A stretch of 14,637 nt of DNA, taken from the NCBI GenBank assembly GCA_017453765.1, contig JAFTEG010000429.1, forward strand, positions 1 through 14,637, given 5' to 3'. The translations under genes and the position numbers were made by a program. The stretch is from Selenomonadaceae bacterium (GTDB lineage Bacteria > Bacillota > Negativicutes > Selenomonadales > Selenomonadaceae). The notes under the pieces are model-generated. The model was not told the DNA's origin and searched no databases. It saw nothing but the letters and a program-made list of their open reading frames with translations. This document shows positions 2,811 through 14,637 of this stretch, piece by piece; the first letter of the stretch is position 1, and each line of letters starts with the position of its first letter.

Positions 2811-3164
2811 CTACGCAATCATAAAAGCAGGTGTCACGCCTTGCGAATATCGCGCATTGTATGTGTTGCATACACCGGCAGAATTGACGCGGCAATAACT
2901 TGTAGAGTTGGAACTCTGCGGACTTCTAAGCCACCAATGACAAGGCGAATTTAAATCTTTTTGAGAAGTATGTACGCGCGAATTGCCGTTTTTGAAGTAG
3001 TCGTACTGCTGTTGAAAATTTTGCTCAGCGGAATTGGAATAAGCCTGTTTGCCGAAAACTTCATACTCTGACAGCAAGAAAATTTTATCTGTTGTCGCGG
3101 TTACGAAAGTTGATTCATTAACGCCGCCTGTGTTGTCTGTGTACTTAGTGCAAGGCGAAAGGAT
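2811..3164 (-). pseudogene. DUF6273 C-terminal domain fragment of a tail/fibre protein
   Basis: About 117 residues with the DUF6273 pattern: a KYTDNTGG lead-in, IFLLSEYEVFGKQAYSN, then WWLRSP, then a Ser/Asn/Tyr-rich stretch ending YSQGVTPAFMI. In complete proteins this C-type-lectin-like domain is the receptor-facing C-terminus of a longer fibre. Here the recognisable sequence starts abruptly at about 3164. No ATG or ribosome site lies in this part, and upstream the frame runs through two terminator hairpins (residues there, up to an ATG at 3254, are not domain-like). The N-terminal part is therefore missing. The break coincides with the edge of the plus-strand ORF6N cassette. The downstream gene is still coupled to its stop codon, so the truncation looks secondary. 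Confidence 0.7.
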
Positions 3165-3174
3165 TTTTTGCAAT

Positions 3175-3197
3175 AAAAAAGCCGCATAAATTGCGGC
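3175..3197 (-). terminator. Intrinsic terminator (minus strand)
   Basis: GCCGCA (minus 3197-3192) and TGCGGC (3186-3181) form a perfect 6-bp stem with a 5-base loop, followed by six T (3180-3175). It is the second of two minus-strand terminators in tandem beyond the antisense promoter at 3350-3322. Confidence 0.8.
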
Positions 3198-3219
3198 ATA
3201 TTTAAATTGTCTCAAAAAC

Positions 3220-3240
3220 AAAAAAATTCGCATTTGCGAA
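3220..3240 (-). terminator. Intrinsic terminator of the predicted antisense RNA
   Basis: TTCGC and GCGAA (minus 3240-3227) pair across a 4-base loop, followed by seven T (3226-3220). It lies about 90 bases downstream of the minus-strand promoter inside the leader of the ORF6N gene at 3372. Confidence 0.7.
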
Positions 3241-3248
3241 AATTCTTG

Positions 3249-3277
3249 TTGCAAATTTATTTTTCAGCTGTTATAAT
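3249..3277 (+). promoter_or_regulatory. Sigma70-type promoter for the 3372 ORF6N gene
   Basis: TTGCAA (3249-3254), a 17-base spacer, then TATAAT (3272-3277). Transcription would start near 3284, giving an 88-base leader before the ATG at 3372. Confidence 0.75.
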
Positions 3278-3296
3278 CTAATTGTTAAAACACATA

Positions 3297-3343
3297 TTAA
3301 CCGCCGCCAAATGGTAAATATATTCTACCAGTCCGGCGGTTAA
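3297..3343. repeat. Interrupted inverted repeat in the leader (operator or RNA hairpin)
   Basis: TTAACCGCCG (3297-3306) and CGGCGGTTAA (3334-3343) are perfect 10-base inverted arms. Inside them TGGTA (3312-3316) pairs with TACCA (3326-3330), so the mRNA leader can form a long hairpin. The right arm lies in the -35/-10 spacer of the reverse promoter, so the repeat could also be a repressor operator on DNA. Confidence 0.7.
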
Positions 3344-3350
3344 AAGTCAA
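3322..3350 (-). promoter_or_regulatory. Reverse promoter inside the leader of the 3372 gene
   Basis: On the minus strand TTGACT (3350-3345), a 17-base spacer, then TAGAAT (3327-3322). It points away from the gene and towards the gene's own promoter, and is followed by intrinsic terminators at 3240 and 3197. Confidence 0.6.
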
Positions 3351-3371
3351 TCGAAAGGGGCTGGTATTTTT

Positions 3372-4082
3372 ATGACCAGGAAGAAAAAATTTAAGTTGCC
3401 CGCGCTTATCGAATATTCCAATGAGCCGGTTTTAACTACGGAGGTTCTCGCCAAATACTACGAGACGTCAGTCAAAATAATTTCTCAAAATTTTATTCGT
3501 AATATAGATCGTTTTGAAGAAGGTAAGCATTTCTTTAAACTGGAAGGAGAAACGCTACAAGCTTTTAAAACCGTTCCTCAAAATGAAGAATGGTTTAAGC
3601 ATTTTTCTGTGTTATATCTTTGGACACGTCGCGGTGCCGCTCGTCACGCTAAAATGTTGAACACCGAAAAAGCTTGGGAAGTTTTTGAAAAGCTCGAAGA
3701 ATTTTATTTTGATCACGAAAAATTTGAATGGAATAAAGCTCGCACCGACGGCAAAATTGTTCGCAAAAAGTTCACTGATGTTATAAAAGAATTTTACGAG
3801 TATGCAAAAGTGCAGGGAACTACACGTCCGCAAGTAGCCTTTCAGATGAAGTATACAAGAATTTGCAATAAATTGGCGGGACTGCCGGCGGTAGGCGGAC
3901 GCGATAAAGCAACTGTTCAGCAAATCGGAATTTGCTCTTGGAGTGAAAATCGTATGGCGGAGATTATTGGCGATTGTATGGAAAAAGCATTGCCGTACAA
4001 AGAGATTGAAAATCAAATTGAACTTTGGGCAAGTGCCGTTGACAATATTTTTAATAAAGCCTATTTTTTGCCTTCTGCGTAA
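3372..4082 (+). CDS. ORF6N-domain DNA-binding / antirepressor-like protein
   Basis: A 236-residue protein and the only convincing plus-strand gene. Residues about 14-115 match the phage ORF6N domain: VLTTEVLAKYY, QNFIRNIDRFEEGKHFFKLE, then LWTRRGAARHAKMLNTEKAW. ORF6N is related to the Bro-N/KilA-N DNA-binding modules of phage regulators. Residues about 120-225 form a second helical domain (KFTDVIKEFYEYAKVQG..., then ENRMAEIIGDCMEKAL) like the C-terminal parts of phage antirepressors. It shares the N-terminal half with the 5882-6523 product but not the C-terminal half. The ATG follows AAAGGGG by about 12 bases. It has its own promoter, leader hairpin and opposing promoter. A weak hairpin with a T-run (about 4109-4145) may end its transcript. 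The role as a regulator is inferred. Confidence 0.85.
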   Translation: MTRKKKFKLPALIEYSNEPVLTTEVLAKYYETSVKIISQNFIRNIDRFEEGKHFFKLEGETLQAFKTVPQNEEWFKHFSVLYLWTRRGAARHAKMLNTEKAWEVFEKLEEFYFDHEKFEWNKARTDGKIVRKKFTDVIKEFYEYAKVQGTTRPQVAFQMKYTRICNKLAGLPAVGGRDKATVQQIGICSWSENRMAEIIGDCMEKALPYKEIENQIELWASAVDNIFNKAYFLPSA

Positions 4083-4129
4083 ATAAATTTTACGGCGATA
4101 AAAATTAAAGCGACGTGGCACCGAAATTG

Positions 4130-5518
4130 TTACGCTGCTTTTTTGTTGTATGTCAATTCAGTGGCTTGCTCCGGCGTTTTGAAAATTACTACACGTTGTG
4201 ACGTCGAACAATTTACACTGCCGTAACTTTTTACTCTGTCGTACATCGCGCCTTTCAAAACGTAATACGTGGCATAAATTTCATCGGTCGGAATTTCCTT
4301 TGCAAAAAGTTTCACCTTGCCGCCGGTAATTTCGCAGGTAGGACACAAGCCGCACCCTACGCAAATGCCGTGATCTTTCGGCGCAATGATTATGTTTACA
4401 ATGTCACTTGAAAATAAATTCGCCTCTTCAAATTCATAGTAGAAATTGAATTTACTGTCGGAATCGGCGTTTTCAATCCAACTTTCAATCGGAATGGTTA
4501 AAGTTTCTTGCGTGATTTTCGGCAAATATTTTTTGCTGATAATATTGCCTTCCGAATCGTACATAGCTTTTTCGGAAAAAGCGGCATTGGTCGTATAATC
4601 AGCACTTACGGCAGTTTCATTTTTGCCGAGAGCGCCTAAAGTTTGTCGTGCAGTTTCGGCGTCGGTATCGTCTAAAAGCGTACGCATAAACGCGGTTAAA
4701 TCTGTCGTGACGTAAGAGTTAAGCGCATTGGCATAAATCATTTTGTCGGCGCTTGTATCAAGGTTAGACAGCGAAGTTAAAGCCGCGTTTAAATCCTGCT
4801 TACCTGCAAGCGTGTCCGCCATTGTTGCCGCAAAATTTTCATCGTTGTTAATCGCGTCCGAAATTTCGCGTAACGTGTCCAATGTTGCAGGCGCAGTGCC
4901 GATTAATTTTTGAATAGCTGTTTGCACAAAGGCAGTAGTTGCAAGCTGATTGTTGTTCGTGCCGTCACTTGCAGTAGGAGCTTGCGGCGTGCCTGAAAAT
5001 ACGGGATTGAAATTCGGCGCATATGTCGTAGCAATGACGTTACCTGCCGCGTCCGAAGTTGCACGGGTAGCGGTTGAAGAGTTGCCGTCAATCGTAGCTT
5101 TGATTTTTGCAGGCAGTTTTATTGTAACGTCGCTTGTGCCGTCAAAATCTACCGTCGTACCGGAATTTAATTCTGTAGCGTCCGTGACGTTAATTTTTCG
5201 CGGCGTTGCCAAGCGCGTAGCATTTTCAGCGTTGCCGGTACAAACTTCCGCAGTTACGGCGTTGGTTGACTTAACTGCCGTGTCGCCTTTTTTCAAATAA
5301 ATTCCTGCCGCGTCTTCTGTCGTCAAGTAAGTTGAATGAATCGGGTTCCCCGCCGCGTCATTAGTAGCTTGATTCGCTTTTGCCGCCGAGTTTGCCGTAT
5401 CCGCGTAACCTGCATTTGTTGCGTACGCCGCTTGAATCGGTTCATTGGCGCTTACAAAATTTTCCTTGATTTTGTCAACAAGATGTCGGGCGCCGTCAAT
5501 GGAAAGATATTTGGACAA
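4130..5518 (-). CDS. Tail fibre protein
   Basis: A 462-residue protein. The TTG at 5518 is chosen as start because GGAGG lies 7 bases ahead; an upstream TTG (5542) would sit before the ribosome site. The protein opens with the family N-terminus SKYLSIDGARHLVDKIKENF. It then has fibre repeats (AAYATNAGYADTANSAAKAN; ATDAAGNxIxxTY twice) and the classic fibre module PTASDGTNNNQLATTAFVQT followed by LREISDAINNDENFAATM and LAGKQD. The last 110 residues are a beta domain with GLCPTCEITGGKVKLFAKE, a pattern I recognise from C-terminal domains of phage tail proteins; its cysteines (C-x2-C-x2-C-x2-C) are unusually dense here. It acts outside the cell as a host-recognition or fibre-stalk protein. A terminator lies immediately upstream of its ribosome site. 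Confidence 0.88.
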   Translation of the reverse strand: MSKYLSIDGARHLVDKIKENFVSANEPIQAAYATNAGYADTANSAAKANQATNDAAGNPIHSTYLTTEDAAGIYLKKGDTAVKSTNAVTAEVCTGNAENATRLATPRKINVTDATELNSGTTVDFDGTSDVTIKLPAKIKATIDGNSSTATRATSDAAGNVIATTYAPNFNPVFSGTPQAPTASDGTNNNQLATTAFVQTAIQKLIGTAPATLDTLREISDAINNDENFAATMADTLAGKQDLNAALTSLSNLDTSADKMIYANALNSYVTTDLTAFMRTLLDDTDAETARQTLGALGKNETAVSADYTTNAAFSEKAMYDSEGNIISKKYLPKITQETLTIPIESWIENADSDSKFNFYYEFEEANLFSSDIVNIIIAPKDHGICVGCGLCPTCEITGGKVKLFAKEIPTDEIYATYYVLKGAMYDRVKSYGSVNCSTSQRVVIFKTPEQATELTYNKKAA

Positions 5519-5540
5519 AGGTGTTACCTCCTTTCCAAAC

Positions 5541-5568
5541 AAAAAACGGCAAGACCTTACCCCTGCCG
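5541..5568 (-). terminator. Intrinsic terminator between the capsid stub and the fibre gene
   Basis: On the minus strand CGGCA (5568-5564 region) pairs with TGCCG (5551-5547), followed by six T (5546-5541). The T-run leads into TTTGGAAAGGAGG, the ribosome site of the fibre gene. Confidence 0.78.
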
Positions 5569-5587
5569 CCTTTTATTTTATTTTGCT

Positions 5588-5878
5588 TTAATCGTCTTCA
5601 GACGCCGTCATTATTTGAATACAGCCGAAATCAGTCAAATTTTCGCCGTCATATTTGAATGAAGTTTTGGCAATTCCGCAGATCCTACAAATGCTGAATC
5701 CTACCTTGTTTCGATAGTCGAAAAATTCTTCTTGCCAAGTAGGCGGTTCGCCGAGAGCCAAAACGCCGGCTTGTGCTCCTAAGAAAAGCGCGTGTCCGAC
5801 TTTCGTTCCGCCTGAACCTGTTTCCGTACGCAAAATCCGGTTGCATTGGTGAATTACAACGCCGTCATCAGGATAGTT
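5588..5878 (-). pseudogene. Major capsid protein (N4-gp56 type), C-terminal stub
   Basis: A frame of 96 residues reads NYPDDGVVIHQCNRILRTET, then GGTKVGHALFLGAQAGVLAL, then PPTWQEEFFDYRNKVG and a beta-strand end (IAKTSFKYDGENLTDFGCIQ). This is the characteristic C-terminal end of N4-gp56-family major capsid proteins, which are normally about 300-400 residues long. The N-terminal two thirds are absent. The frame begins directly after the stop of the ORF6N gene; the two are in the same frame, separated only by tandem stops TGA TAA (5884-5879). There is no good start codon or ribosome site; a TTG at 5833 is the first possible start. I read it as a truncated capsid gene, not a functional short protein. 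Confidence 0.8.
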
Positions 5879-5881
5879 TTA

Positions 5882-6523
5882 TCAAGAATCTTTGCCCAAA
5901 ATCAAATTTGCGGCAGTTTTAATTAATTCGTCCCGAAGTTCTTCATTATTGGTAACCGTTGCGAGATTTTTGAGCGTTTCTGCTTTTTCCATATTTCTTT
6001 CTTCTTTAATTTCCATTACCCTCAGCTGGGTATTTACCAAGTTTTCGCGTTCCCTTTTCAAAAATTCACGGTTTAAATCCAGACGATGAATTTCTTTGCT
6101 AATTTCTTTTTTGATTTTTTCCAGTTCATCTTTGCTAAGTTTGAAGAAAGTATCCTCCATTTTTTCAAAAACTTTCCAAGCTTTATCTGTCGTCAAAATT
6201 TTACAATGACGAATAAAGCCCTTTCGAGTCCAAAGATAAACTATACGTGCGTGTTTGTCTTTGCCAATGAACTGCCCTTCAGGTTGAAGGGTAGTTTTAA
6301 AATCCTTTAAATCGTCGCCTTCAAGCTTAAAGAAATGCTTTCCTTCTTTGAAATACTCTTGGTTACGCCTAAAATTTTGCATTATAATTTCGTCATTGGT
6401 TCCATAAAATTCAGCAAGCTCTTTGGTAGTCAAAACAACTTCATCGTTTATGGCGATGCGTTCGACTTGGCGAAAGTCTTCTTTGCCTCCTTTCACCGGT
6501 GGAAGTATTGAAATGTTTACCAT
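5882..6523 (-). CDS. ORF6N-domain protein with C-terminal coiled coil
   Basis: A 213-residue protein. The ATG at 6523 is chosen because AGAAAGG lies 9 bases ahead; ATG 6529 and TTG 6532 are too close to that site. Residues about 25-125 form the ORF6N domain (VVLTTKELAEFYG, QNFRRNQEYFKEGKHFFKLE, LWTRKGFIRHCKILTTDKAW), about half identical to the same region of the 3372-4082 product. Residues about 130-190 are a highly charged coiled coil (KLSKDELEKIKKEISKEIHR...). This replaces the antirepressor-type C-terminus of the paralogue. A DNA-binding regulator acting as an oligomer is the likely role. It has its own promoter (6687-6659) and an opposing promoter in its leader, and it lies between a scaffold gene and the stub of the capsid gene. 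Confidence 0.85.
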   Translation of the reverse strand: MVNISILPPVKGGKEDFRQVERIAINDEVVLTTKELAEFYGTNDEIIMQNFRRNQEYFKEGKHFFKLEGDDLKDFKTTLQPEGQFIGKDKHARIVYLWTRKGFIRHCKILTTDKAWKVFEKMEDTFFKLSKDELEKIKKEISKEIHRLDLNREFLKRERENLVNTQLRVMEIKEERNMEKAETLKNLATVTNNEELRDELIKTAANLILGKDS

Positions 6524-6558
6524 ACTCATCAACCTTTCTTAAAAGCAAAAAAATACCA

Positions 6559-6587
6559 TTGACAAAAAATATAAAATCCTTTACAAT
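6559..6587 (+). promoter_or_regulatory. Reverse promoter inside the leader of the 5882-6523 gene
   Basis: TTGACA (6559-6564), a 17-base spacer, then TACAAT (6582-6587): a perfect -35 and a 5/6 -10. It points right, against the direction of the surrounding genes, and is followed by a terminator at 6699-6718. Confidence 0.65.
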
Positions 6588-6609
6588 TTGATACGTTAAA
6601 AGATGAAAG

Positions 6610-7578
6610 TTAGGCTACGTAATAGTTTTTCGCGATGTTTATTTTTTTGTCAACGTGAATTTTAGCGTAGAATTGCGTAGTTGTCAACATAGAAAATTCC
6701 GCCGCTCGGCGGTTTTTTCTTGCAAAGGCGTTTTCGGCGCGGTTGAAATAATCTCGAACTATCATCATATCTGCAGGTGACGCTTGATTCCGGCGTAAAC
6801 GTGCAAAAGACGAAGTGATAATTTCCTTGTCAATCGGCGATTGAGCGTTGAAAAATTCTCCCGTTGCAAACTGCCGTACCGCGTCAAAGTTTTCATCAGC
6901 CTGTTTTTGCGCGACGTAGTTGTTATAGTCATTTACAGATTGATTTTGCAAATACTGCATACGCTGAAGTTCCTGCTGTTGAGCCACGTGATTGGCAATA
7001 ATGTCATTGTACACGGACGCTTCTGAAAGTTTCCGTGCGTGTTGCCAAAGTGCAATGCGCGGATCGCCGTCCTCAAAATAATCCATAGACTCCACGTCTT
7101 CTTTTGAAAGACCGCTGATAGCCATAGCGCGCTGCGTTATCGTGTCATCAATTTGCTTTATGACTTCCGCGTTAAACTGCGGCGCATTTTGTACCGGCAT
7201 TTCTTGCGGCGGTTGGTTCTGTGCGGGAGCCTGTGACTGCGAAATATCGCCGTAGCGTTCACGGTACGCCGCAATCTGTTGAGCCAATTCGTTTTTCTGG
7301 TCGATAATTTCTTTAAAGCGCTTGTACGGTACCGCAGTTTCGGCGTCATCAGTTTTAGTTTCTGCAGGGGTTTCAGTTTGAGGCCCTTCTGCAGGTTTAG
7401 ACGCGTTGGAAATTTCGGCGGCTTTTTTCATCACGTCACGCGCAATGTCTTCCGGTATGCCTGACAATTCTTCGGGTATCGGCGGCAATTCTTCTGTACT
7501 TTCTTCAATCGTGCCGTCAAGAATATCGCCGTAGTTTTGAACTTCTTCCTCTGCGAACTTTTGAATATCGAACAACAT
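6610..7578 (-). CDS. Capsid scaffolding-like protein, probably altered C-terminus
   Basis: A 322-residue protein with an ATG at 7578 and a GGAGG site 9 bases ahead. The MLFDIQKFAEE start is typical of phage head proteins. An acidic Pro/Glu-rich segment follows, then VPYKRFKEIIDQKNELAQQI (about residues 84-103), a motif common in phage scaffold or head-assembly proteins. The rest is long helices rich in Gln/Asn (QQQELQRMQYLQNQSVNDYN). It precedes the capsid gene remnant, the expected place for a scaffold. The last 25 residues (298-322) are encoded across the promoter boxes of the ORF6N cassette (TTGACA at 6687-6682), so the natural C-terminus has probably been replaced. Internal head-assembly function is inferred from context and composition. 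Confidence 0.75.
   Translation of the reverse strand: MLFDIQKFAEEEVQNYGDILDGTIEESTEELPPIPEELSGIPEDIARDVMKKAAEISNASKPAEGPQTETPAETKTDDAETAVPYKRFKEIIDQKNELAQQIAAYRERYGDISQSQAPAQNQPPQEMPVQNAPQFNAEVIKQIDDTITQRAMAISGLSKEDVESMDYFEDGDPRIALWQHARKLSEASVYNDIIANHVAQQQELQRMQYLQNQSVNDYNNYVAQKQADENFDAVRQFATGEFFNAQSPIDKEIITSSFARLRRNQASPADMMIVRDYFNRAENAFARKNRRAAEFSMLTTTQFYAKIHVDKKINIAKNYYVA
6659..6687 (-). promoter_or_regulatory. Promoter for the 5882-6523 ORF6N gene
   Basis: On the minus strand TTGACA (6687-6682), a 17-base spacer, then TAAAAT (6664-6659). The start would be near 6652, giving a leader of about 130 bases. The boxes lie inside the last codons of the scaffold-like gene. Confidence 0.68.
6699..6718 (+). 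terminator. Plus-strand intrinsic terminator
   Basis: CCGCC (6699-6703), loop GCTC, GGCGG (6708-6712), then six T (6713-6718). It is oriented to stop the reverse transcript from 6559-6587. The same bases encode part of the scaffold-like protein on the other strand, so chance is possible. Confidence 0.65.
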
Positions 7579-7593
7579 TACTTTTTCCTCCGT

Positions 7594-7797
7594 CTAATTT
7601 TTCACCGCGTTGTAAAGTGCCGTCAACGAATCATAAAACTGCGCGGGATTTTGAACACGTTTGCTGTTTAAATCCTCAATGCCTTTCAAGCCGAGTTTTA
7701 TCAAGCCTACTTTTAACTGTTCAAGCAAGGCGTCAGATTCGGTTTTAATTTCCGCGCCGTTGTCTTCAAAAATGTCATTTTCAAATTTCTTAGCCAT
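7594..7797 (-). CDS. Small head-region phage protein
   Basis: A 67-residue, mostly helical, soluble protein starting at ATG 7797 behind AAGGTGA. It starts MAKKFENDIFEDNGAEIKTE and has an amphipathic helix around LLEQLKVGLIKLGLKGIEDL, ending YDSLTALYNAVKN. It lies 9 bases from its upstream neighbour and 15 bases before the scaffold-like gene, so it belongs to the same head-gene operon. I do not recognise a family. A capsid accessory role is suggested only by position. Confidence 0.65.
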   Translation of the reverse strand: MAKKFENDIFEDNGAEIKTESDALLEQLKVGLIKLGLKGIEDLNSKRVQNPAQFYDSLTALYNAVKN

Positions 7798-7806
7798 AGT
7801 CTCACC

Positions 7807-8184
7807 TTAATCAAAGAGTGAATCAATGTCGGCGCTGGTTGCAACGGCGGCGGCGAAAAGTACAAATTCTCCGCTTGTCGTGTCGTAGGTGTACATAGAT
7901 TTACTGCCGCTGTCCAAGTCAATGTAAATCTTGCCGCTTTCGCCGGTGACCTCTGTTGACGTAATTTCGCCGTTATTGTCCGTGTAATACTTCGTCTGCG
8001 AATTGCTTGACAACACGTGAATAGGAATGACGTTGCTAACCGTAGTTTGTGCAGGAATTTTTTCAGCTTTAATCTTGCCTTCGCCGTCTACAAAATCTGC
8101 CGACGCAATAAATGTGTCCGCATTCACGGCGTCCTGCTTGCTTTTGAAAAGTGCCAAAGTTTCTACTGTTACAATCTTAGTCAT
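7807..8184 (-). CDS. Small structural protein of the shared-tail family
   Basis: A 125-residue protein starting at ATG 8184 (TTGGAGG site 8 bases ahead); an upstream GTG/TTG-type start in the same frame would overlap that site. The N-terminus TKIVTVETLALFKSKQDAVN is the diverged family helix. The middle contains GKIKAEKIPAQ, a form of the 'GKIxxEQLPSY' motif of the 8203-8781 product, then GKIYIDLDSGSKSMYTYDTT, which parallels GKIYYDLAATIDGSYRYSGS in that neighbour. The C-terminus ATSADIDSLF is the acidic tail motif. The two adjacent genes are therefore duplicates that diverged. A fibre or decoration protein is plausible. Confidence 0.75.
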   Translation of the reverse strand: MTKIVTVETLALFKSKQDAVNADTFIASADFVDGEGKIKAEKIPAQTTVSNVIPIHVLSSNSQTKYYTDNNGEITSTEVTGESGKIYIDLDSGSKSMYTYDTTSGEFVLFAAAVATSADIDSLFD

Positions 8185-8202
8185 TTTGAAAACCTCCAAA
8201 CT

Positions 8203-8781
8203 TTATTCTGTGAAAAGTGATTCGATATCCGATATTGCTACCGGCGAAAATTCCGTAGAATCGGCAGGCGTGTAACCGAGTGCGCTTATAATATTTTCCG
8301 CACTTAAACTTATAACGCCGCCTTCACTCAAAGAAATGTTATCGCCGATTTGAACTACACCGAGTGCGGTTTTTGTCGCGGGCGTAGTTGAAACAGTTCC
8401 CAGCTCATCTTTCGTCGCGTACGTTTCAATAATCGGGTTGCCGTTCGCGTCATTAATCGCCTTGTCCGCCGTCGACACGGAAGTACCAACCGCAATGAAC
8501 TGCGAGCCGCTGTACCGGTACGAACCGTCAATCGTTGCGGCAAGGTCGTAATAAATTTTGCCCTTTTCGCCGTCAATCGCAACGGTACAATCAGAATCGG
8601 CGTAAAAATTTACAACGCCTTCATTTGTCTGCGTGTAGCCTTCTATCACGTCATCAACGTAGGACGGCAACTGTTCGGGAGAAATTTTACCGCCGGAAAG
8701 CGTGGCGAATTTCCCCAAGTTATACTCGTCTTGTTTGAGTTTAAATGACCGCAGTCCCGCTAAATCAATGTAAGCCGCCAT
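8203..8781 (-). CDS. Tail-fibre-like structural protein of the shared-tail family
   Basis: A 192-residue protein starting at ATG 8781 (AAGGAG 8 bases ahead). It has the N-terminal family helix AAYIDLAGLRSFKLKQDEYN, then GGKISPEQLPSYVDDVIEGY, a common fibre motif, and the beta module GKIYYDLAATIDGSYRYSGS. Next come NDANGNPIIETYATKDEL and TKTALGVVQIGDNISLSEGG, typical phage fibre repeats, then IISALGYTPAD. The C-terminus ISDIESLF is the acidic tail motif. Its start overlaps the end of the 8787-9230 gene region (TGA at 8789-8787 precedes the ATG by 5 bases). A fibre-type virion protein lying in the head-gene part of the operon is slightly unusual. Confidence 0.82.
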   Translation of the reverse strand: MAAYIDLAGLRSFKLKQDEYNLGKFATLSGGKISPEQLPSYVDDVIEGYTQTNEGVVNFYADSDCTVAIDGEKGKIYYDLAATIDGSYRYSGSQFIAVGTSVSTADKAINDANGNPIIETYATKDELGTVSTTPATKTALGVVQIGDNISLSEGGVISLSAENIISALGYTPADSTEFSPVAISDIESLFTE

Positions 8782-8786
8782 TTTCC

Positions 8787-9230
8787 TCACTCCTTATCAT
8801 CAAATTGAATTAAAAATTTATTTTGCCCTTTCAGTGATTCTTTTGAAATGCTAACCAAGTAATGGTGCGGCAACTCTTTCACTGCAAGCGGCGTCATTTT
8901 AGGTTTATGCGGCTCGTGTAAAAATAAATCGCCGTATTCGTCTAAAATTGTTTCGCTTTCATCGTCGCTTGAACTTTCATCAGCGGCAGTACTTTTTTCA
9001 TCTTCTGCGTCTTGAAATGGTAGTACGGCAAGTGAGCAAGTTCCGGTGTTGCCGATTTTCCGCGCATAAAGTTTCTGATAGAAATTCAGCGTCTGAAAAG
9101 GTTTCAACACAATTCCCGCGTCGTCGGTGCTGTCGGTAACTTCAATATTGGCGTCGCTTGAAAGATTTTGCATAACGCCGTACGTCTCCGCAATTTCACT
9201 GTAATTTTTTGTCAGCGTGTACTTTGTCAT
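8787..9230 (-). CDS. Phage structural protein of unknown role
   Basis: A 147-residue protein starting at ATG 9230, with AAAGGAGGG ahead; a TTG at 9269 would put the terminator and ribosome site inside the gene. The N-terminal 70 residues are beta-rich (ANIEVTDSTDDAGIVLKPFQ, then FYQKLYARKIGNTGTCSLAV), resembling short phage head or tail proteins with a 'VLKPFQT...YARxxG' pattern. Residues about 78-100 are a strongly acidic, disordered linker (DAEDEKSTAADESSSDDESE). The end is basic-to-mixed (KSLKGQNKFLIQFDDKE). The function is unknown. It is the first gene of the small-gene block after the AbiF unit, and a terminator sits just upstream. Confidence 0.72.
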   Translation of the reverse strand: MTKYTLTKNYSEIAETYGVMQNLSSDANIEVTDSTDDAGIVLKPFQTLNFYQKLYARKIGNTGTCSLAVLPFQDAEDEKSTAADESSSDDESETILDEYGDLFLHEPHKPKMTPLAVKELPHHYLVSISKESLKGQNKFLIQFDDKE

Positions 9231-9251
9231 ACCGGTTCCCTCCTTTCCAAC

Positions 9252-9281
9252 AAAAAAAGCACCTGCCAATTTGCAAGTGCT
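9252..9281 (-). terminator. Intrinsic terminator after the AbiF gene
   Basis: On the minus strand AGCACTTGC (9281-9273) pairs with GCAGGTGCT (9266-9258) over a 6-base loop, followed by a run of seven T (9258-9252, the first belonging to the stem). It ends the AbiF transcript, and its T-run leads into the ribosome site of the next gene. Confidence 0.8.
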
Positions 9282-9304
9282 ACAGCCGATTTGCTGATTT
9301 TAGA

Positions 9305-9313
9305 ATTATATCA
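9305..9313 (-). promoter_or_regulatory. Possible extended -10 promoter
   Basis: On the minus strand TGATATAAT (9313-9305) is a perfect extended -10 element, but there is no good -35. A transcript would start near 9298 and meet the terminator at 9281-9252 almost at once, so it would act only with read-through or attenuation. Confidence 0.35.
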
Positions 9314-9361
9314 CGTAATTTTAAAAGTTATCGCCGCGATAAGGAATTTATAAAAAATTTT

Positions 9362-10312
9362 TTAACAATTAAGCTTTGGTTGAAAATGCCAATCGGCAGG
9401 AAAGCCTAATTTCTGCATTATTTCATTAGATGTTATGGAATTCAAATGTTTTTCTAAATGCATATTAGCCAGTTTTCTAATTTTGTTATGTAATTCACAA
9501 TATTCTATTTTGCTTAAAAAACATTGTGTAGACACAAAAACAGAATAAACATTTCTGCGTTCATTTTCAGCAGATATCCCATAATTATCGTGTAAAACAC
9601 TCCAATATTTGCTGTCCCGCCGACAATTAAAACCTATTAAACGATTGGTATGCGCACAAATATTCCGTACTTCGTTCATATTTTCTACAAAACTAATCAT
9701 AATTTCCGGCGGAAAAGTCGAGATTCTTGATAAATTTTGTTTGATAAAATCACATAAATCTTTTGCTACTTTATTCTGTAATTGTACCGTTGAGGCGGTC
9801 AACATATTTCTTAATTCACCAAAATCCAGATGATTAACTAAAACCCAAATAGGCACTTCATTGTGATTTTGAATATAATGAGCTATGCTACTTTCAGGAA
9901 ATTTTTGTTGACGGCTGATTATTTGTGACAGACGGGATATCGTAGAAATTACAGACAATGTTTTCTCTTGTGCATAACATTCAATATTTAAATAAGAGTA
10001 AGGCTTATCTGAAAATACCTCTGCAAAACGATATGCAAATATTGATTTCAAATGAGATTCCGCATTGAGTATTGCCTTAAAAAAAGCCTGTTTCAATTCT
10101 TTATCGAATAAATAAAGACGCGCTACTTCTTCAAATGTAGTGCCACCGATATAATTTTCTCCTTCCATTGGGAAAAATTTACTGTAACCATTTATAATGT
10201 TGTAATAATTGTTGCTTAAAAGATATTTTTTAGCATAATCTTCATCGTTGATTGTAAGATTACGGTTACGTAATAACTGAATTTGTTCGGTGAGTGTTTG
10301 AAAAGGTTTCAA
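9362..10312 (-). CDS. abiF: Abortive infection protein, Abi_2 (AbiD/AbiF) family
   Basis: A 316-residue protein from a TTG at 10312, matching the usual Abi_2 start (KPFQTLTEQIQLLRNRNL). An ATG at 10354 would add 14 residues read through the leader RNA hairpin and is disfavoured. Family landmarks in order: YLLSNNYYNIINGYSKFF (about 30-47), LFDKELKQAFFKAILNAESH and LKSIFAYRFAE (70-98), and EVRNICAHTNRLIGFN (215-229) holding the HEPN nuclease motif R-x4-H (R216, H221). HEPN Abi proteins are thought to cleave RNA and halt the infected cell. It has its own promoter (10423-10396), a structured leader RNA and a terminator (9281-9252), so it is an independent defence or exclusion gene inside the virion operon. 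The local sequence is AT-richer than its neighbours, consistent with transfer. Confidence 0.88.
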   Translation of the reverse strand: MKPFQTLTEQIQLLRNRNLTINDEDYAKKYLLSNNYYNIINGYSKFFPMEGENYIGGTTFEEVARLYLFDKELKQAFFKAILNAESHLKSIFAYRFAEVFSDKPYSYLNIECYAQEKTLSVISTISRLSQIISRQQKFPESSIAHYIQNHNEVPIWVLVNHLDFGELRNMLTASTVQLQNKVAKDLCDFIKQNLSRISTFPPEIMISFVENMNEVRNICAHTNRLIGFNCRRDSKYWSVLHDNYGISAENERRNVYSVFVSTQCFLSKIEYCELHNKIRKLANMHLEKHLNSITSNEIMQKLGFPADWHFQPKLNC

Positions 10313-10341
10313 AAAAATACCCCCTCCGATAAAGGAGAAGG
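10311..10341 (-). terminator. Terminator of the AbiF leader RNA, overlapping the start codon
   Basis: On the minus strand CCTTCTCC (10341-10334) pairs with GGAGGGGG (10327-10320) across a 6-base loop, followed by GTATTTTTTT. The 3' arm is the ribosome site (GGAGG) and the last T of the T-run belongs to the TTG start codon of AbiF. Confidence 0.8.
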
Positions 10342-10389
10342 CACTTTTCCGCACTGCTCCCCGTAGAGATTACAGCACTCTTGCAATTA
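10311..10389 (-). ncRNA. AbiF-associated leader RNA (abiF RNA motif candidate)
   Basis: The promoter at 10423-10396 (start near 10389) and the terminator at 10341-10311 bound an RNA of about 79 nt. Before the terminator it can fold a stem in which TGCT and AGCA enclose CTC/GGG with a 5-base bulge. A structured 'abiF RNA' found upstream of abiF genes has been described, and position, size and terminator overlap fit. I have not matched it to the covariance model. Confidence 0.6.
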
Positions 10390-10395
10390 CTCTCC

Positions 10396-10423
10396 ATTAT
10401 ATCTTTTTTTAGTTGGTTGTCAA
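10396..10423 (-). promoter_or_regulatory. Promoter of the AbiF leader RNA and gene
   Basis: On the minus strand TTGACA (10423-10418), a 16-base spacer, then TATAAT (10401-10396): both boxes perfect. Confidence 0.8.
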
Positions 10424-10473
10424 CAACAATCTCATTATAAGGATTATTTTCGATCAAACAAGAGCATATTTCT

Positions 10474-10543
10474 GCTAACTTGAAATATGGAAGTCATTAT
10501 AGCACTCTTATTTCAATTTAGACAGCTAAGTTGAAATATGGAA
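10474..10543. repeat. Pair of 19-base direct repeats upstream of AbiF
   Basis: GCTAACTTGAAATATGGAA (10474-10492) and GCTAAGTTGAAATATGGAA (10525-10543) differ at one base and are 51 bases apart, start to start, about five DNA turns. A half-site TATTTCAA lies between them in inverse orientation. Such spacing suits a regulator's operator. The flanking 10424-10624 region otherwise has no gene that I can support, only AT-rich sequence and an 8-base inverted repeat TGTCAAAA/TTTTGACA (10552-10559, 10609-10616). Confidence 0.7.
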
Positions 10544-10624
10544 AATGAGTGTGTCAAAAACAGTCCTTTCTGACAACTTACGAAATATGCTTTATCAAAG
10601 AGCCGATGTTTTGACAAGAAAAAT

Positions 10625-11455
10625 TTACAGCGCAAAATCAAGCAAGTACTGATTCTTTTCACGTTCAGCTTTTGTCATGCCCGCTTGCACTCGACCTAAT
10701 CTGTCGGCTTGCTTGCGTTCACGTTCTTTTTTCACGGTGTCGGGACGCACGCCCAATTCTTTCAAGCGCCGTGCATTTTCGGTAGTCGGGTTTTTAATGA
10801 AGGCGTCAACCGCTTTTTGCTTTTCCTTCGTAAGTTTGGCGCGTTCGTTGTAGGTAATGCGCTGAATGTCCGTAGCAAGCGACTCATCAACCGATTTAAA
10901 ACCTGCGCCGCGAATCAGTCTTTCGTAAAAACTTTCATAGACAGAAGTTTTTCTGCCGCGCGAGCCAAACGTTTCACCTTCAAACGCCGCGTAAATGTTA
11001 TAAAGACCGGGACTGACACTTCTTAACGCGTTCAAATATGCGCCTTCCGTGCCGTTTACAGTGCCGTCAAACATATTGCCGACAAAGCCGGTAATTGTCG
11101 AACCCGTAGCGCCTAAAAGAAAGTCGGACAAATTCTGCGGCATTATAGCGGCAAGACCAGCCCTCTTTGACATATCGATATCAAACGCGGCGGGCGCACC
11201 GTACATTGCGATATTTCCCGCCAGCTTTCCAACTTCATTGTCGCCGAAAATTGCCTGCGAACCTTGAATCGCCGTTTTCTGCAGAAAATCTTTCGGGAAC
11301 AATCCAAATTTCTCATCGAACAAATCGTCAAGCCAATCAAGGAAAGGCAAGCCCATAAGTCCGCACATTAAAAGGTAAGGGAACCAAAACGCGATTTTCT
11401 GTTTAGTCGTCGTCTTCGTGTTTGTAGGTAACATATCGCCGATTATTTCAAGCAT
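10625..11455 (-). CDS. Large polyvalent protein C-terminal fragment (LPD38-like)
   Basis: A 276-residue frame. Residues about 20-175 match the C-terminal LPD38-type region of phage large polyvalent proteins: a hydrophobic helix WFPYLLMCGLMGLPFLDWLD, DDLFDEKFG, NIAMYGAPAAFDIDMSKRAG, then LLGATGSTITGFVGN and SPGLYNIYAAFEG. The tail is helical and basic (KEKQKAVDAFIKNPTTENAR, RRLKEL). The ATG at 11455 has no ribosome site, and the frame is open upstream right to the stop codon of the HNH gene. This looks like the severed C-terminal end of the polyvalent protein at 12313-14637, not a separate gene. In intact phages this protein is packaged in the virion and may enter the host with the DNA. Confidence 0.75.
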   Translation of the reverse strand: MLEIIGDMLPTNTKTTTKQKIAFWFPYLLMCGLMGLPFLDWLDDLFDEKFGLFPKDFLQKTAIQGSQAIFGDNEVGKLAGNIAMYGAPAAFDIDMSKRAGLAAIMPQNLSDFLLGATGSTITGFVGNMFDGTVNGTEGAYLNALRSVSPGLYNIYAAFEGETFGSRGRKTSVYESFYERLIRGAGFKSVDESLATDIQRITYNERAKLTKEKQKAVDAFIKNPTTENARRLKELGVRPDTVKKERERKQADRLGRVQAGMTKAEREKNQYLLDFAL

Positions 11456-11484
11456 TTTGAAAAGGGGGCTTTGAAAATTTAGCT

Positions 11485-12147
11485 TTAATGGACATTTTTA
11501 TAAGTTTTTTCGGTAACTACACATTGTATAACGTGAGGAGCAACTTTAAATTTTTTCGCCAATGCCTGTTGTCCAAATTTTCTATCGCCAATTTTATAAT
11601 TTTTACGAATATACCGAACTTGTTCATCAGTTAAAGCTTTTTCGCATCTTTTATTTTTGACCAATCCAATTTTATGGGCGTGAAGTACGTTTTCACTTCG
11701 TGTTGCCCACTCTAAATTTTCTAAGCAATTATTTTGTTTATTGCCGTCCTTATGATTGACCATACTTTTATTTTCAGGATTGGGAATAAATGCTTCAGCA
11801 ATCAGTCGATGAACACTATATGTTTTACGATGGTCATTTTTAAACAAAACTACTCCTAAATACCCGTTCCAATGTTCACCTGGTTTTAAAATTCGCGGCT
11901 CTTTGCCGTAAAAACTTTTAACTCTGCCCAAATTACTAACTTGGTAAATACCCTCAAAATCTTTAACATCACGCCAAATTTCGCTCGGCAAATTCAAGAC
12001 CACGCCAAAAACATTTTCTTTGAGTTCTGAAAAATCTTTCTCTATTTTTTTCAATGCAGACAAAATTGTATTTGTTGCATTCTGCACTTCAGGTGAAAAC
12101 GAAGGAAAACCATCCATTAAAATTTTTGTAGCTTCCTCTACAGTCAT
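11485..12147 (-). CDS. NUMOD4/HNH endonuclease (homing-type)
   Basis: A 220-residue protein starting at ATG 12147, with AAAGGGG about 10 bases ahead. An upstream in-frame start (12261) would read through the leader and is rejected. Residues 1-50 are a helical extension without a known match. Residues about 55-100 are NUMOD4 (EIWRDVKDFEGIYQVSNLGR, VKS). Residues about 110-155 are the HNH nuclease: VHRLIAEAF, then VNHKDGNKQNN with H132, and LENLEWATRSEN. Residues about 172-215 form a DNA-binding helix-turn-helix tail (LTDEQVRYIRKNYKIGDRKF). Such enzymes nick or cut DNA at a site near their own gene and so spread by homing. It sits between two parts of the polyvalent protein gene, and has its own promoter and an opposing promoter in its leader. 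Confidence 0.92.
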   Translation of the reverse strand: MTVEEATKILMDGFPSFSPEVQNATNTILSALKKIEKDFSELKENVFGVVLNLPSEIWRDVKDFEGIYQVSNLGRVKSFYGKEPRILKPGEHWNGYLGVVLFKNDHRKTYSVHRLIAEAFIPNPENKSMVNHKDGNKQNNCLENLEWATRSENVLHAHKIGLVKNKRCEKALTDEQVRYIRKNYKIGDRKFGQQALAKKFKVAPHVIQCVVTEKTYKNVH

Positions 12148-12169
12148 ATACAATCGCCCCTTTGTGAAT

Positions 12170-12198
12170 TTGACACTCCACGCAGAAACGATTATAAT
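12170..12198 (+). promoter_or_regulatory. Perfect consensus reverse promoter in the HNH gene leader
   Basis: TTGACA (12170-12175), exactly 17 bases, then TATAAT (12193-12198): full consensus in both boxes. It points right, against every gene around it, and a terminator-like structure follows at 12209-12286. Confidence 0.72.
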
Positions 12199-12229
12199 AT
12201 TAAAAATTTTGACTCGTCGGTTCTGCGTG
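12179..12229. repeat. Inverted repeat in the HNH gene leader
   Basis: CACGCAGAA (12179-12187) and TTCTGCGTG (12221-12229) are perfect 9-base inverted arms. As in the 3372 cassette, one arm lies in the -35/-10 spacer of the reverse promoter and the other just past its start. It is a candidate operator or leader hairpin. Confidence 0.7.
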
Positions 12230-12286
12230 TTTGGTTTACTTTGACAGTAAAATTTTAACACAAAGCTTTTGGCGGGTCAATTTTTT
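12205..12286 (+). ncRNA. Predicted antisense RNA to the HNH gene leader
   Basis: It starts near 12205 from the consensus promoter. TTGACTCGTC (12209-12218) can pair over 10 positions (two G-U) with GGCGGGTCAA (12271-12280), followed by six T (12281-12286), so an RNA of about 82 nt closed by a long stem is predicted. It covers the first 40 or so bases of the HNH mRNA and its promoter. The large loop makes the terminator weaker than in the other two cassettes. Confidence 0.42.
12252..12280 (-). promoter_or_regulatory. Promoter of the HNH endonuclease gene
   Basis: On the minus strand TTGACC (12280-12275), a 17-base spacer, then TAAAAT (12257-12252). The start is near 12245, with a leader of about 98 bases. 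Confidence 0.65.
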
Positions 12287-12312
12287 ATTATCTTTTCAAA
12301 ACTTAATTTTAT

Positions 12313-14637
12313 TTATGCAATGTTGTGAACCATTGAATCAAAATCCTTGTCGCCCATAATCGGCGCGTAATTGCTTTCGTCCATTCCCAATTCTTTGAAG
12401 TTGGCGATTTTCGGCGCAATATAAATTTCTTCGCCGTCTTGCAATGCGTTGGGATTTTTCTTTTGCCATTCTTCCGCAATTTTAACCGCCTCAACCTGCG
12501 TCCTGCCGCTGCCGATAACACCGCCGTAACCGAACCGCTCAACAATCTTGCCGTCTTTATCCTTCACTCTAATCATATATTCGTGAAATAAATGAGGTAC
12601 GTAGCCGGCTTTGTTCGTAAGTTCCGCAATGCCTTCACGAACTTCGACATAATAAATCTTTTCGCCGTTTTCAATGCCTTTCACCGTAGCTTTCACCACT
12701 TGCATTGCGGGATCTTTCTTAAACCGGTTAAGCACGCTTTCAGTCACGGTGTATTTTTTTTCGGTATGCGCATAACGTTTGTACGTCACCAATCTGTTAC
12801 CGTTTTCGTCGGTGTTGTCGGAAATTCTTGTAATGGTGACGAATTTATTATTTTTCAGCGCGGTTATTTCGGCGTCACTACAGTGTTTGGAATTTATCTG
12901 TGGTCGACGCTTTGCCTCATTTAGCATATGGTAAGCCTGCGTCATCAGCTGACGAATTTTGACATAAGCCTTTGCAACGTTTTCAGACACGCCTGTTTCA
13001 GCGCAGATTTTTTGTATTCGTGCTTGCTGTAATTTTTTCGTGACGTTTTCCGGTGACGTACTTGCCTTGATTGAATCTTTTTCCTGCTCGGTAAGTACGC
13101 CGTATTCCATTTCGTTCGCGTCGCCGTCAATCAGCAGATTAGTCAAGGATTCGTTGTCGTCTTTGTTTTTCAGAAAATCCGTTGCGGCGTTAAGTCCAAC
13201 CGTGAATCTGTCACGAAGTCTTACAAGCTTGTCCATAGCTTTATCCCCCATTCGGAAGTAGGCGCGAAAGGCGGCAACTTTTTCGGCGATTCGTGAAGGC
13301 GAACGGCGGTACATATCGGATAAAGTTAAATCGTTGACGTACTCTTCACCGTTTTTATAGGCGTCAAGCATAAGGCGGCTGATTTTCAATTCTTTCAAGC
13401 GCTGGCGATTTTCTTTCGACGGATTTTTAATATAATCGTCCATAGCCTTTTCACGTTCGGCGCGAAGACGTTTAGCCGCTGTTTCCGCCGTAACAATGTG
13501 GTCGCCGTCAATATGAAGTGCGCGTGAGATTTTTTGTGTTATGCCGTTAAACCATTTGCGTACAGCGCCTTCACTTGAATTGTTGTTGTTTGTATTGCCG
13601 GAATTTGAGCTACTGCCGATAGAAAATTTAAAAACGCCCTGATTTTTATTTTCAGGACGTTGATTCAATTCATTTTTTAATTCGTCATAGAGTTTTAAGA
13701 AATGTTTTCTTGCACCACTTACTTCACCGCCGACGTTTCGTGATAACCCGCGAGTGATTCGTCCACTATCGCTGTTAATTTTTCCAACGGCATTTCCGGA
13801 AAAAGTATGTGGGCTATTTTTATACTCTCGTCCCTGTCGGTCGTCTCCATTAATTTGTCGAACAGATTCAGTTCTGATTCGCTCATCATTTTCAAAACAC
13901 CTCCGCGCATATTCTATTCTAGCCGCAAAATGATTTTTATAATCTTGATTGTTTTGAACTTGATTATACCATATTAACATTTTTCTTATATAAGGCAAAC
14001 GGTCGCGTGCCTGGTCACGTACAACGGGGTCATTCATCTTTGAAAAATCAACGTATTCGTCAATTTCTTTTGCGACGGTTTCACGTACCATTTTCATTAT
14101 GCCTTCGGTAAGATATTTTTCAAAAAGTTTTTGGCTTATTTCGTCATTCTCTTCAAGAGTTCCTGCCGTGTTATCTTCATTGTTACGTGAAAACTTAGCT
14201 CCTGCAAGCGATAAGCCGTCCAAATTAAAAAAGCCCTGTTCATCAGAGCTTTCAATTTCTGTATCATCAAGCAGGTTTTCAAGCGATTCGCCGTTCGCCA
14301 GTTCAAGGTTATGCGTCCGCGTGTTGTAGCGGAAAATCTTATTGCCGTCGGCGTCGGTAAGCTTAGCCGCCATTTTGCCGAATGTGTCAGCCAACTTTGC
14401 ATATTGTCCGCGCGTAAGCTTGCCTTTCGGATTCTGAAACAGGTCTTTGAACTTTTGGAAGGTATCTTTCAACCACGCCAAAAATCTTTGAACTAAGTTA
14501 TGATTTTTCTTAGCGACGCGGCTTAAAATCTTCTGCATAGCGTCGGCAATCATTTCTTCCGTGACGTCTACATTTTTGGTGACGTCGGTGCGCTTTGTTT
14601 CGGCAAGATAGTTTGTAAGCTGAGATTCGGTAATGCC
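12313..14637 (-). CDS. Large polyvalent virion protein, partial (N-terminus outside window)
   Basis: 774 residues are visible and the frame is open to the right edge, so an ATG at 14553 is internal. It is mostly helical and charged, with modules typical of phage large polyvalent proteins: a basic helical start (about 30-75), an Asn/Ser/Gly/Arg-rich linker with FKFSIGSSSNSGNTNNNN (about 280-350), and the helical repeat KAMDDYIKNPSKENRQRLKE (about 400-420). Later come QARIQKICAETGVSENVAKA and the C-terminal GYVPHLFHEYMIRVKDKDGK and IANFKELGMDESNYAPIMGD. The frame stops after DFDSMVHNIA, immediately before the HNH cassette. The helical repeat recurs in the fragment at 10625-11455, supporting a single original protein. 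Such proteins are packaged in the head and are thought to be ejected with the genome; catalytic domains would lie in the unseen N-terminal part. Confidence 0.8.
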   Translation of the reverse strand, partial: GITESQLTNYLAETKRTDVTKNVDVTEEMIADAMQKILSRVAKKNHNLVQRFLAWLKDTFQKFKDLFQNPKGKLTRGQYAKLADTFGKMAAKLTDADGNKIFRYNTRTHNLELANGESLENLLDDTEIESSDEQGFFNLDGLSLAGAKFSRNNEDNTAGTLEENDEISQKLFEKYLTEGIMKMVRETVAKEIDEYVDFSKMNDPVVRDQARDRLPYIRKMLIWYNQVQNNQDYKNHFAARIEYARRCFENDERIRTESVRQINGDDRQGREYKNSPHTFSGNAVGKINSDSGRITRGLSRNVGGEVSGARKHFLKLYDELKNELNQRPENKNQGVFKFSIGSSSNSGNTNNNNSSEGAVRKWFNGITQKISRALHIDGDHIVTAETAAKRLRAEREKAMDDYIKNPSKENRQRLKELKISRLMLDAYKNGEEYVNDLTLSDMYRRSPSRIAEKVAAFRAYFRMGDKAMDKLVRLRDRFTVGLNAATDFLKNKDDNESLTNLLIDGDANEMEYGVLTEQEKDSIKASTSPENVTKKLQQARIQKICAETGVSENVAKAYVKIRQLMTQAYHMLNEAKRRPQINSKHCSDAEITALKNNKFVTITRISDNTDENGNRLVTYKRYAHTEKKYTVTESVLNRFKKDPAMQVVKATVKGIENGEKIYYVEVREGIAELTNKAGYVPHLFHEYMIRVKDKDGKIVERFGYGGVIGSGRTQVEAVKIAEEWQKKNPNALQDGEEIYIAPKIANFKELGMDESNYAPIMGDKDFDSMVHNIA
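13719..13889 (-). CDS. Candidate nested small gene inside the polyvalent protein gene
   Basis: A 56-residue frame in a different reading frame of the same strand as the large gene. The ATG at 13889 has a full GGAGGT site at 13904-13899 with a 9-base gap. The product starts MMSESELNLFDKLMETTDRD, continues IKIAHILFPEMPLEKLTAIV and has the composition of a normal acidic helical protein. In the same interval the large protein is a low-complexity linker rich in N, S, G and R. Against it: there is no family match that I know, and one such frame can arise by chance in a gene of this length. Confidence 0.3.
   Translation of the reverse strand: MMSESELNLFDKLMETTDRDESIKIAHILFPEMPLEKLTAIVDESLAGYHETSAVK

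Follow-up and report, generated by a model that had tools for sequence, protein, structure and literature searches.

In phage P22, the antisense promoter of sar is convergent to the antirepressor gene ant, and the sar RNA covers the ant ribosome site. Outside T4-like phages, little is known, to our knowledge, about what restrains free-standing homing-type nuclease genes from harming the genomes that they invade. In the available part of the source, helD and pps of Bacillus subtilis, genes that act in rifampicin resistance, are described as having dual convergent promoters, and at helD the antisense promoter, the stronger of the two, keeps the sense promoter silent until rifampicin lifts this block (PMC12802891); the words 'homing' and 'endonuclease' have 0 occurrences in the main text of that paper as far as it was available. 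Here we analyze a stretch of 14,637 bases (the window), which is one entire contig of an incomplete 2.09-Mb Selenomonadaceae genome. Three gene cassettes located among the virion genes of a bacterial prophage in this window, two with an ORF6N gene (cassettes 1 and 2) and one with a NUMOD4-HNH gene (cassette 3), each have a predicted second promoter in the leader that faces the gene's own promoter. The three are likely members of a lineage-specific family of gene cassettes that appear to be mobile. We think it somewhat probable that their common layout, specific to this lineage, serves as a convergent-promoter leash on mobile genes for DNA-binding proteins and nucleases, and that it likely works through transcriptional interference as at B. 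subtilis helD. No description of this module was found in the titles and abstracts that literature searches listed, most subscription papers being outside reach.

Facing promoters of the three cassettes

All three cassettes have a pair of facing promoter-like sites of the sigma70 type, recognized by sequence match. These sites, the genes behind them, and the associated hairpins are as follows.

3249 to 3277, plus strand: sense promoter of cassette 1, TTGCAA-17-TATAAT, with TG before the -10 box
3322 to 3350, minus strand: facing promoter of cassette 1, TTGACT-17-TAGAAT, with an extended TG before the -10 box
3284 to 3371, plus strand: predicted leader of cassette 1, in which a hairpin, TTAACCGCCG...CGGCGGTTAA, flanks the reverse -10 box (fold of 3284-3385, z -2.0)
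3240 to 3227, minus strand: terminator-like hairpin of the predicted antisense RNA of cassette 1, TTCGCAAATGCGAA-TTTTTTT, from sequence
3197 to 3181, minus strand: second hairpin on the antisense side of cassette 1, from sequence
3372 to 4082, plus strand: ORF6N protein 1 of cassette 1, 236 amino acids (aa), with a helical C-terminal part whose model weakly resembles the DNA-binding protein DdrC
6659 to 6687, minus strand: sense promoter of cassette 2, TTGACA-17-TAAAAT
6559 to 6587, plus strand: facing promoter of cassette 2, TTGACA-17-TACAAT
6699 to 6712, plus strand: terminator-like hairpin of the predicted antisense RNA of cassette 2, CCGCCGCTCGGCGG-TTTTTT, coinciding with the cassette edge
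5882 to 6529, minus strand: ORF6N protein 2 of cassette 2 (the listed frame begins at TTG 6532)
12252 to 12280, minus strand: sense promoter of cassette 3, TTGACC-17-TAAAAT, with TG before the -10 box
12170 to 12198, plus strand: facing promoter of cassette 3, TTGACA-17-TATAAT, a perfect consensus (12/12)
12205 to 12286, plus strand: predicted antisense RNA of cassette 3, a single long hairpin with a U run after it, overlapping the sense promoter
11485 to 12147, minus strand: NUMOD4-HNH_3 endonuclease-type gene of cassette 3, 220 aa, from domain search

The virion genes of the window lie on the minus strand, as do the genes of cassettes 2 and 3, and that of cassette 1 lies on the plus strand. 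The predicted leaders are 88, 123, and 98 nucleotides (nt) long in cassettes 1, 2, and 3, respectively. In the same order, the reverse -35 box lies 21, 29, and 22 nt from the start codon, the predicted antisense RNAs start 57, 65, and 58 nt upstream of it, the sense and antisense transcripts would overlap by 32, 59, and 41 bases (from box-inferred starts), and the two -10 boxes are 44, 71, and 53 bp apart.

At a score of at least 12 for both promoters, the window contains exactly three facing pairs, as against 0 in 100 Markov-randomized windows, and the sole further promoter at that score, that of an Abi_2 gene (10423, minus strand), is partnerless. The preliminary description of this DNA had claimed a facing pair at each of the three cassettes, an unlikely coincidence, and no comparable promoters elsewhere among the virion genes. 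The six sites are where it placed them and with the spacing it gave, the randomized windows bear out the improbability of chance, and the absence elsewhere holds at a score of at least 12, with weaker promoter-like matches throughout the window (41 found versus 27.2 expected). The recurring convergent layout, with short predicted antisense RNAs, is likewise borne out and is not tied to one coding sequence. The identical 17-base spacers are present, but as 17 is the consensus, they are by themselves weak evidence. The activity of the six sites as promoters remains a prediction. The further claim, that an intrinsic terminator follows beyond each gene's own promoter, stands for cassettes 1 and 2, which have short hairpins there, but not for cassette 3, where no short-loop terminator was found on the antisense side and the long hairpin overlaps the gene promoter. 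The antisense fold of cassette 3 (12205-12300) has a z of -4.4, with 0 of 200 shuffles equally stable; the antisense folds are less unusual in cassettes 1 (z -1.2) and 2 (z -2.2).

Occurrence of the module and the genes behind it

Several features of the DNA recur well beyond the window, namely the facing boxes and their spacing, the genes that they precede, and, in part of the set, the antisense terminators. An exact facing-promoter pattern, with the reverse spacer fixed at 17 and 25 to 55 bases allowed between the -10 boxes, matches in 39 of 66 genomes of the same genus, and its reversed-pattern control in 0. We read 68 distinct exact-pattern sites, drawn from separate scans of that genus (30 + 35 + 3 loci). 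By eye, 58 of them lead into GIY-YIG, HNH, T5orf172, ORF6N, or Bro-N genes or fragments, and with one frame per site Pfam recognized GIY-YIG in 45, NUMOD3 in 26, T5orf172 and MUG113 in 7 each, Bro-N and ORF6N in 5 each, and HNH_3 in 2. Equally strict patterns in 188 same-genus loci gave 34 facing, 0 divergent, and 0 tandem pairs; the window together with 20 loci (267 kb) has 47 strand-wise matches versus 0 in each of five randomizations.

The preliminary description had pointed to the leaders of related ORF6N and NUMOD4 genes, and to the fate of the reverse boxes in homologs that keep the gene promoter, as places to look. Among same-genus loci, facing pairs occur in 16 of 27 readable leaders of relatives of ORF6N protein 1 (from 29 loci, two of which, L018 and L045, are truncated at contig ends; L033, among the 27, encodes a Bro-N protein). 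In samples chosen by family (30 high-scoring loci per family, cut or unreadable ones dropped, at lower thresholds of 9 and 11), they occur in 18/28 NUMOD4, 15/28 Bro-N, and 15/29 GIY-YIG leaders. The background is 7 of 200 other frames (at least 120 aa, with a ribosome site), and two of these seven, the cassette 3 gene and the HNH gene in L477 (see below), are nuclease-type genes that the filter missed. Of the relatives' leaders whose gene promoter scores at least 9, all but one (16 of 17; the exception at that threshold is L031) also carry the facing promoter. L118, a same-genus relative of the first ORF6N gene at a contig edge (59% identity over residues 12-55), retains both promoters (TTGACA-17-TATAAT facing TTGACA-17-TAAAAT). 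The reverse boxes are thus kept, L031 aside, where the comparison applies, that is, to relatives with leaders; the closest known relatives (56-72% identical) are sequences that come without them. In L080 (769-884) and L083 (7671-7794), leaders with facing promoters, but with no long gene belonging to them, lie in tandem upstream of a complete leader and its gene. In L045 (G043:C117), a single open frame joins the end of an ORF6N domain to a NUMOD4-HNH region and so fuses the two cassette types. Searches with peptide patterns found no viral relatives of the two ORF6N genes and 14 viral loci with relatives of the cassette 3 HNH gene.

In a class-wide draw, the exact pattern was present in 17/25 genomes of the genus versus 17/275 others, the reversed control matching in 1 of 300 (G186). 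None of 10 inspected loci outside the genus leads into a recognized nuclease gene. At least 80 GTDB and at least 80 viral loci outside the genus have facing consensus pairs; the genes seen there by eye encode a Cro/CI-type repressor, rpoB, DinB, and others, and the only GIY-YIG-like gene among the matches listed is in L374, from the viral set. The link to nucleases is therefore, as far as seen, lineage specific. Separately, near-consensus facing promoters lie upstream of an rpoB-like frame in Ruminococcus (L199, L203, and L211, by eye), where they would fit an RNA-polymerase-sensing switch.

Geometry could be evaluated at 55 of the 68 sites, the other 13 having no recognized gene or start. The -10 boxes are 42 to 55 bases apart (median, 50), within the 25 to 55 allowed, and 49/55 elements fall within 45 to 55, the pattern itself stopping at 55. 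The reverse -10 boxes match the consensus at 5.04 of 6 positions on average and the sense ones at 4.60 of 6, which is a measure of consensus match and not of strength. The reverse promoter is upstream of the start codon in 32 elements and inside the first codons in 23 (the starts of L103 and L449 are doubtful). In most of the 23, the encoded GIY-YIG protein has an additional N-terminal peptide that ends in Cys-Gln, and the codons of these two residues, TGTCAA, are the -35 box in reversed orientation; when the loci were searched with a regular expression to test, at the level of codons, for the reverse promoter within GIY-YIG frames, nothing matched. In 17 of these 23 elements, the spacer of the sense promoter has at least 6 bases complementary to the Shine-Dalgarno region; therefore, read-through transcripts could hide that region, as in I-TevI.

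Antisense-side terminators were found in 16/26 elements of the ORF6N-type set (one of 27 was left out) versus 1.8 expected, when shorter stems were allowed and only the region beyond the sense promoter was searched; a stricter version gave 8/26 versus 3.1 expected. In the exact-pattern set, long-loop stems are present on the antisense side in 38/55 elements versus 13.7 expected. In 11 hand-cut sequences, the leader hairpin shows paired changes at 3 of 5 pairs.

T5orf172 and MUG113 are members of the GIY-YIG superfamily. Among ORF6N/Bro-N proteins of the genus that have the module, T5orf172 was recognized in 12/31, MUG113 in 11/31, HNH_3 in 4/31, and ANT in 0/31; among those without the module, the counts are 2/24, 2/24, 0/24, and 5/24, respectively (Fisher test, 0.012 for ANT and 0.013 for T5orf172). 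Because the proteins behind the module often carry T5orf172, MUG113, or HNH_3 and never ANT, the layout, as judged by domain content, tracks mobile nuclease genes and not antirepressors. This is a warning that not every ORF6N/Bro-N gene should be annotated as an antirepressor. In the window, both ORF6N proteins match PHROGs anti-repressor families, and domain searches found no ANT domain in either.

Cassette edges in virion genes and neighboring features

The edges of cassettes 2 and 3 lie in two virion genes and are defined by comparison with related prophages.

5867 to 6711 (unit, no strand): cassette 2, comprising the gene for ORF6N protein 2 with its leader, the two promoters, and the terminator on the antisense side
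5588 to 5866, minus strand: C-terminal remnant of the capsid protein gene (Phage_capsid_3), from domain search and relatives
11477 to 12315 (unit, no strand): cassette 3, replacing ~305 codons of a long open reading frame (ORF) that is continuous in two relatives (L482 and L483)

Cassette 2 takes the place of ~250 codons at the N-terminal end of the capsid gene together with the C terminus of the scaffold: homology to the scaffold of L480 breaks off at 6712, and similarity to the capsid gene starts again at 5866 (in comparison with 5 of 5 intact relatives). At cassette 3, homology to the L482/L483 ORF breaks off at 12316 and starts again at 11476-11494; L485, a third relative, has the two ORF parts in different frames. 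Uninterrupted sites are thus seen in relatives for both, as five intact capsid genes for cassette 2 and two relatives for cassette 3. Against simple homing, ~0.9 kb of host gene is missing at both sites. The mobility of the cassettes and their nuclease activity are themselves inferences from sequence.

The capsid gene is intact in five of the eight prophages with a scaffold relative (L474-L481) and broken in L474, L477, and L481. In L477 (11640-12580, G061:C6), an HNH cassette whose facing promoters score 10.9 and 11.8 has the first ~20 capsid codons on one side and the last 17 on the other. We observed that the capsid gene has been broken repeatedly, by an HNH cassette in L477, by an ORF6N cassette in the window, and by a fusion in L474 (6380-8170, G006:C35), in which the first ~250 capsid residues are joined, by eye, to amidase-like sequence; the junctions in the window (5866) and in L474 fall at nearly the same capsid codon, ~250. 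At 3/3 sites (cassette 2, cassette 3, and L477), the missing host piece is estimated at ~0.9 kb, roughly equal in length to the cassette found there (~0.8 kb). Because each cassette replaces ~0.9 kb, these prophages are probably defective.

The fourth accessory gene of the window serves as an internal negative control.

9362 to 10354, minus strand: Abi_2 gene, with a strong promoter at 10423-10396 and no facing partner

Two 19-nt direct repeats (GCTAASTTGAAATATGGAA, 95% alike) lie upstream of it (window 10474-10543). The predicted model of the cassette 1 protein (mean pLDDT, 81) is an ORF6N domain plus helices, and fold searches with it gave weak matches only, the best being DdrC (E value of 4.4e-3; TM of 0.35-0.37).

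Possible roles of the reverse promoter and relation to known systems

In the reading that we favor, a DNA-binding or nuclease gene would be held down by the second promoter, which faces its own inside the leader. RNA polymerase from the reverse promoter would cross the leader and the sense promoter, in many elements stopping at the antisense terminator, and would occlude or dislodge polymerase at the sense promoter; the short antisense RNA would probably be mostly a by-product. An exception may be those GIY-YIG genes whose antisense RNA would begin within the reading frame and extend over the ribosome site. Less firing of the reverse promoter would free the sense promoter, and the protein would be made in a burst. 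Uncontrolled nucleases and DNA binders would harm their own genome, and the cassettes land in foreign transcription units; therefore, a self-contained off-switch moving with the gene would be favored. We prefer transcriptional interference as the means because most of the set shares the helD spacing and because the EcoRI reverse promoters restrain a nuclease gene similarly. That GIY-YIG, HNH, T5orf172, ORF6N, and Bro-N genes have a module in common across the genus suggests a single switch that can be transferred, for which helD, as a measured analog, predicts a jump in expression when polymerase initiation drops. An extension of this idea, which we consider rather unlikely, is an alarm for takeover: a strong reverse promoter would keep the gene off while polymerase is plentiful, and when an incoming phage or prophage induction limits polymerase, the reverse promoter would starve first and the selfish gene would fire. 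If so, firing would coincide with the presence of a cassette-free target genome in the cell.

Several observations weigh against interference at the sense promoter as the common function. The distances between the -10 boxes of cassettes 1 and 2 are outside the 45 to 55 range of helD, that of cassette 3 being inside, and promoter strength is judged throughout from consensus. A recognized nuclease domain is present in cassette 3 (NUMOD4 and HNH_3), whereas domain searches recognized none in the proteins of cassettes 1 and 2, which have ORF6N only, and probably ~15 of the 31 module-bearing ORF6N/Bro-N proteins lack one as well (range, 4-19, by Pfam counts). No gene of the expected types was recognized at 10/68 sites (L095, L105, L110, L111, L117, L120, L422, L425, L440, and L454), and, at the thresholds applied, the module is missing from ~35-50% of the genes of the same families. 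A short antisense terminator was not found in 10/26 ORF6N-type elements, and in the exact-pattern set short-loop terminators are scarcely enriched (9/55 versus 5.0). Finally, because the 66 genomes come from related species, some of the elements are not independent of one another.

Also on that side are the genes across the promoters. The reverse promoter might serve a neighbor, as an outward promoter brought or kept so that genes on the far side stay expressed after insertion, a possibility that we regard as unlikely but as deserving consideration. In 26/55 elements, the antisense side has a gene of 60 aa or longer that begins no more than 200 nt away; in 11/55, next to GIY-YIG genes, it is mscL, which may (also) be served by the reverse promoter, and aspS- and typA-like genes were seen by eye twice each. 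The remaining 29/55 elements have no such gene, however, and without the mscL cases the count of 15/44 need not exceed that of chance divergent neighbors. Cassettes 2 and 3 face only the antisense strand of virion genes, and cassette 1 faces a truncated DUF6273 frame (2811-3254) that overlaps its terminators. Moreover, the enriched antisense terminators would defeat the purpose of an outward promoter, which would have no need of a 42- to 55-bp spacing. At the 11 divergent GIY-YIG/mscL sites (L093, L097, L098, L106, L108, L109, L113, L424, L427, L443, and L456), transcription from the reverse promoter would yield the 5' end of mscL.

The preliminary description had compared the layout to that of P22 sar and ant, in which case the antisense RNA would block translation of an ORF6N antirepressor mRNA by pairing with its ribosome site. 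The facing promoters, the PHROGs matches of two of the three cassettes, and the in-frame GIY-YIG class, in which the antisense RNA would cover the ribosome site (23/55, with the two doubtful starts), are as expected under this proposal, but we judge it improbable: among the ORF6N/Bro-N proteins of the genus, ANT was recognized only in ones without the module, the predicted antisense RNAs of the three cassettes start 57-65 nt before the start codon and would miss the ribosome-binding site, and most module genes (45/68) encode GIY-YIG endonuclease-type proteins. The analogy is thus not upheld. Membership in the P22 sar type was rejected on two features, the lack of an ANT antirepressor of the immunity region, the cassettes of the window lying among virion genes, and predicted antisense starts upstream of the ribosome-binding site. 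It is very unlikely that the antisense RNA is instead a working partner, e.g., a guide or scaffold RNA of the nuclease. The stable antisense fold of cassette 3 and the paired changes in the leader hairpin would fit such a role, but hairpins are explained by termination, the antisense folds of cassettes 1 and 2 are less unusual, and Rfam gave no family for the window at E values of up to 1, save one chance-level match elsewhere in it. The same type of leader also serves unrelated nuclease folds and non-nuclease ORF6N proteins, and GIY-YIG and HNH homing enzymes find DNA via protein domains such as NUMOD. We give equally little credence to chance promoter-like boxes in AT-rich leaders, or to operator repeats resembling promoters. 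Inverted repeats do overlap the boxes in cassettes 1 and 3, and the promoters are known here from sequence; against this stand the empty randomized windows, the excess of facing over divergent and tandem pairs, and the reversed control without a match in the 66 genomes.

Among the closest known systems are the helD and pps promoters, as described in the available part of that source (PMC12802891). They share with the module two facing promoters and a short antisense RNA (about 90 nt at helD), and the published search motif of 45-55 bp between -10 elements compares with 49/55 elements here; in contrast, the reverse spacers are 19 bp at helD and pps versus 17 here, where the pattern fixes them, and the genes here are of the mobile-DNA type. 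In EcoRI and Eco29kI, going by the accessible part of the report (PMC3874152), a nuclease gene is likewise restrained by reverse promoters that face its own promoter, with antisense RNA; these promoters are inside a restriction-modification operon, whereas here they are mostly in leaders of single genes, with several nuclease folds in one genus. The homing endonucleases of phages T4 and Aeh1 share low nuclease expression and an RNA structure that hides the ribosome site in read-through transcripts, but they use late promoters, hairpins, and autorepression, with no facing promoter described in the portions available (PMC3014915 and PMC2988022). P22 sar/ant shares an antisense promoter convergent to the promoter of an antirepressor-type gene; it differs in that the predicted antisense RNAs of our three cassettes spare the ribosome site and in that genes of the genus with true ANT domains lack the module.

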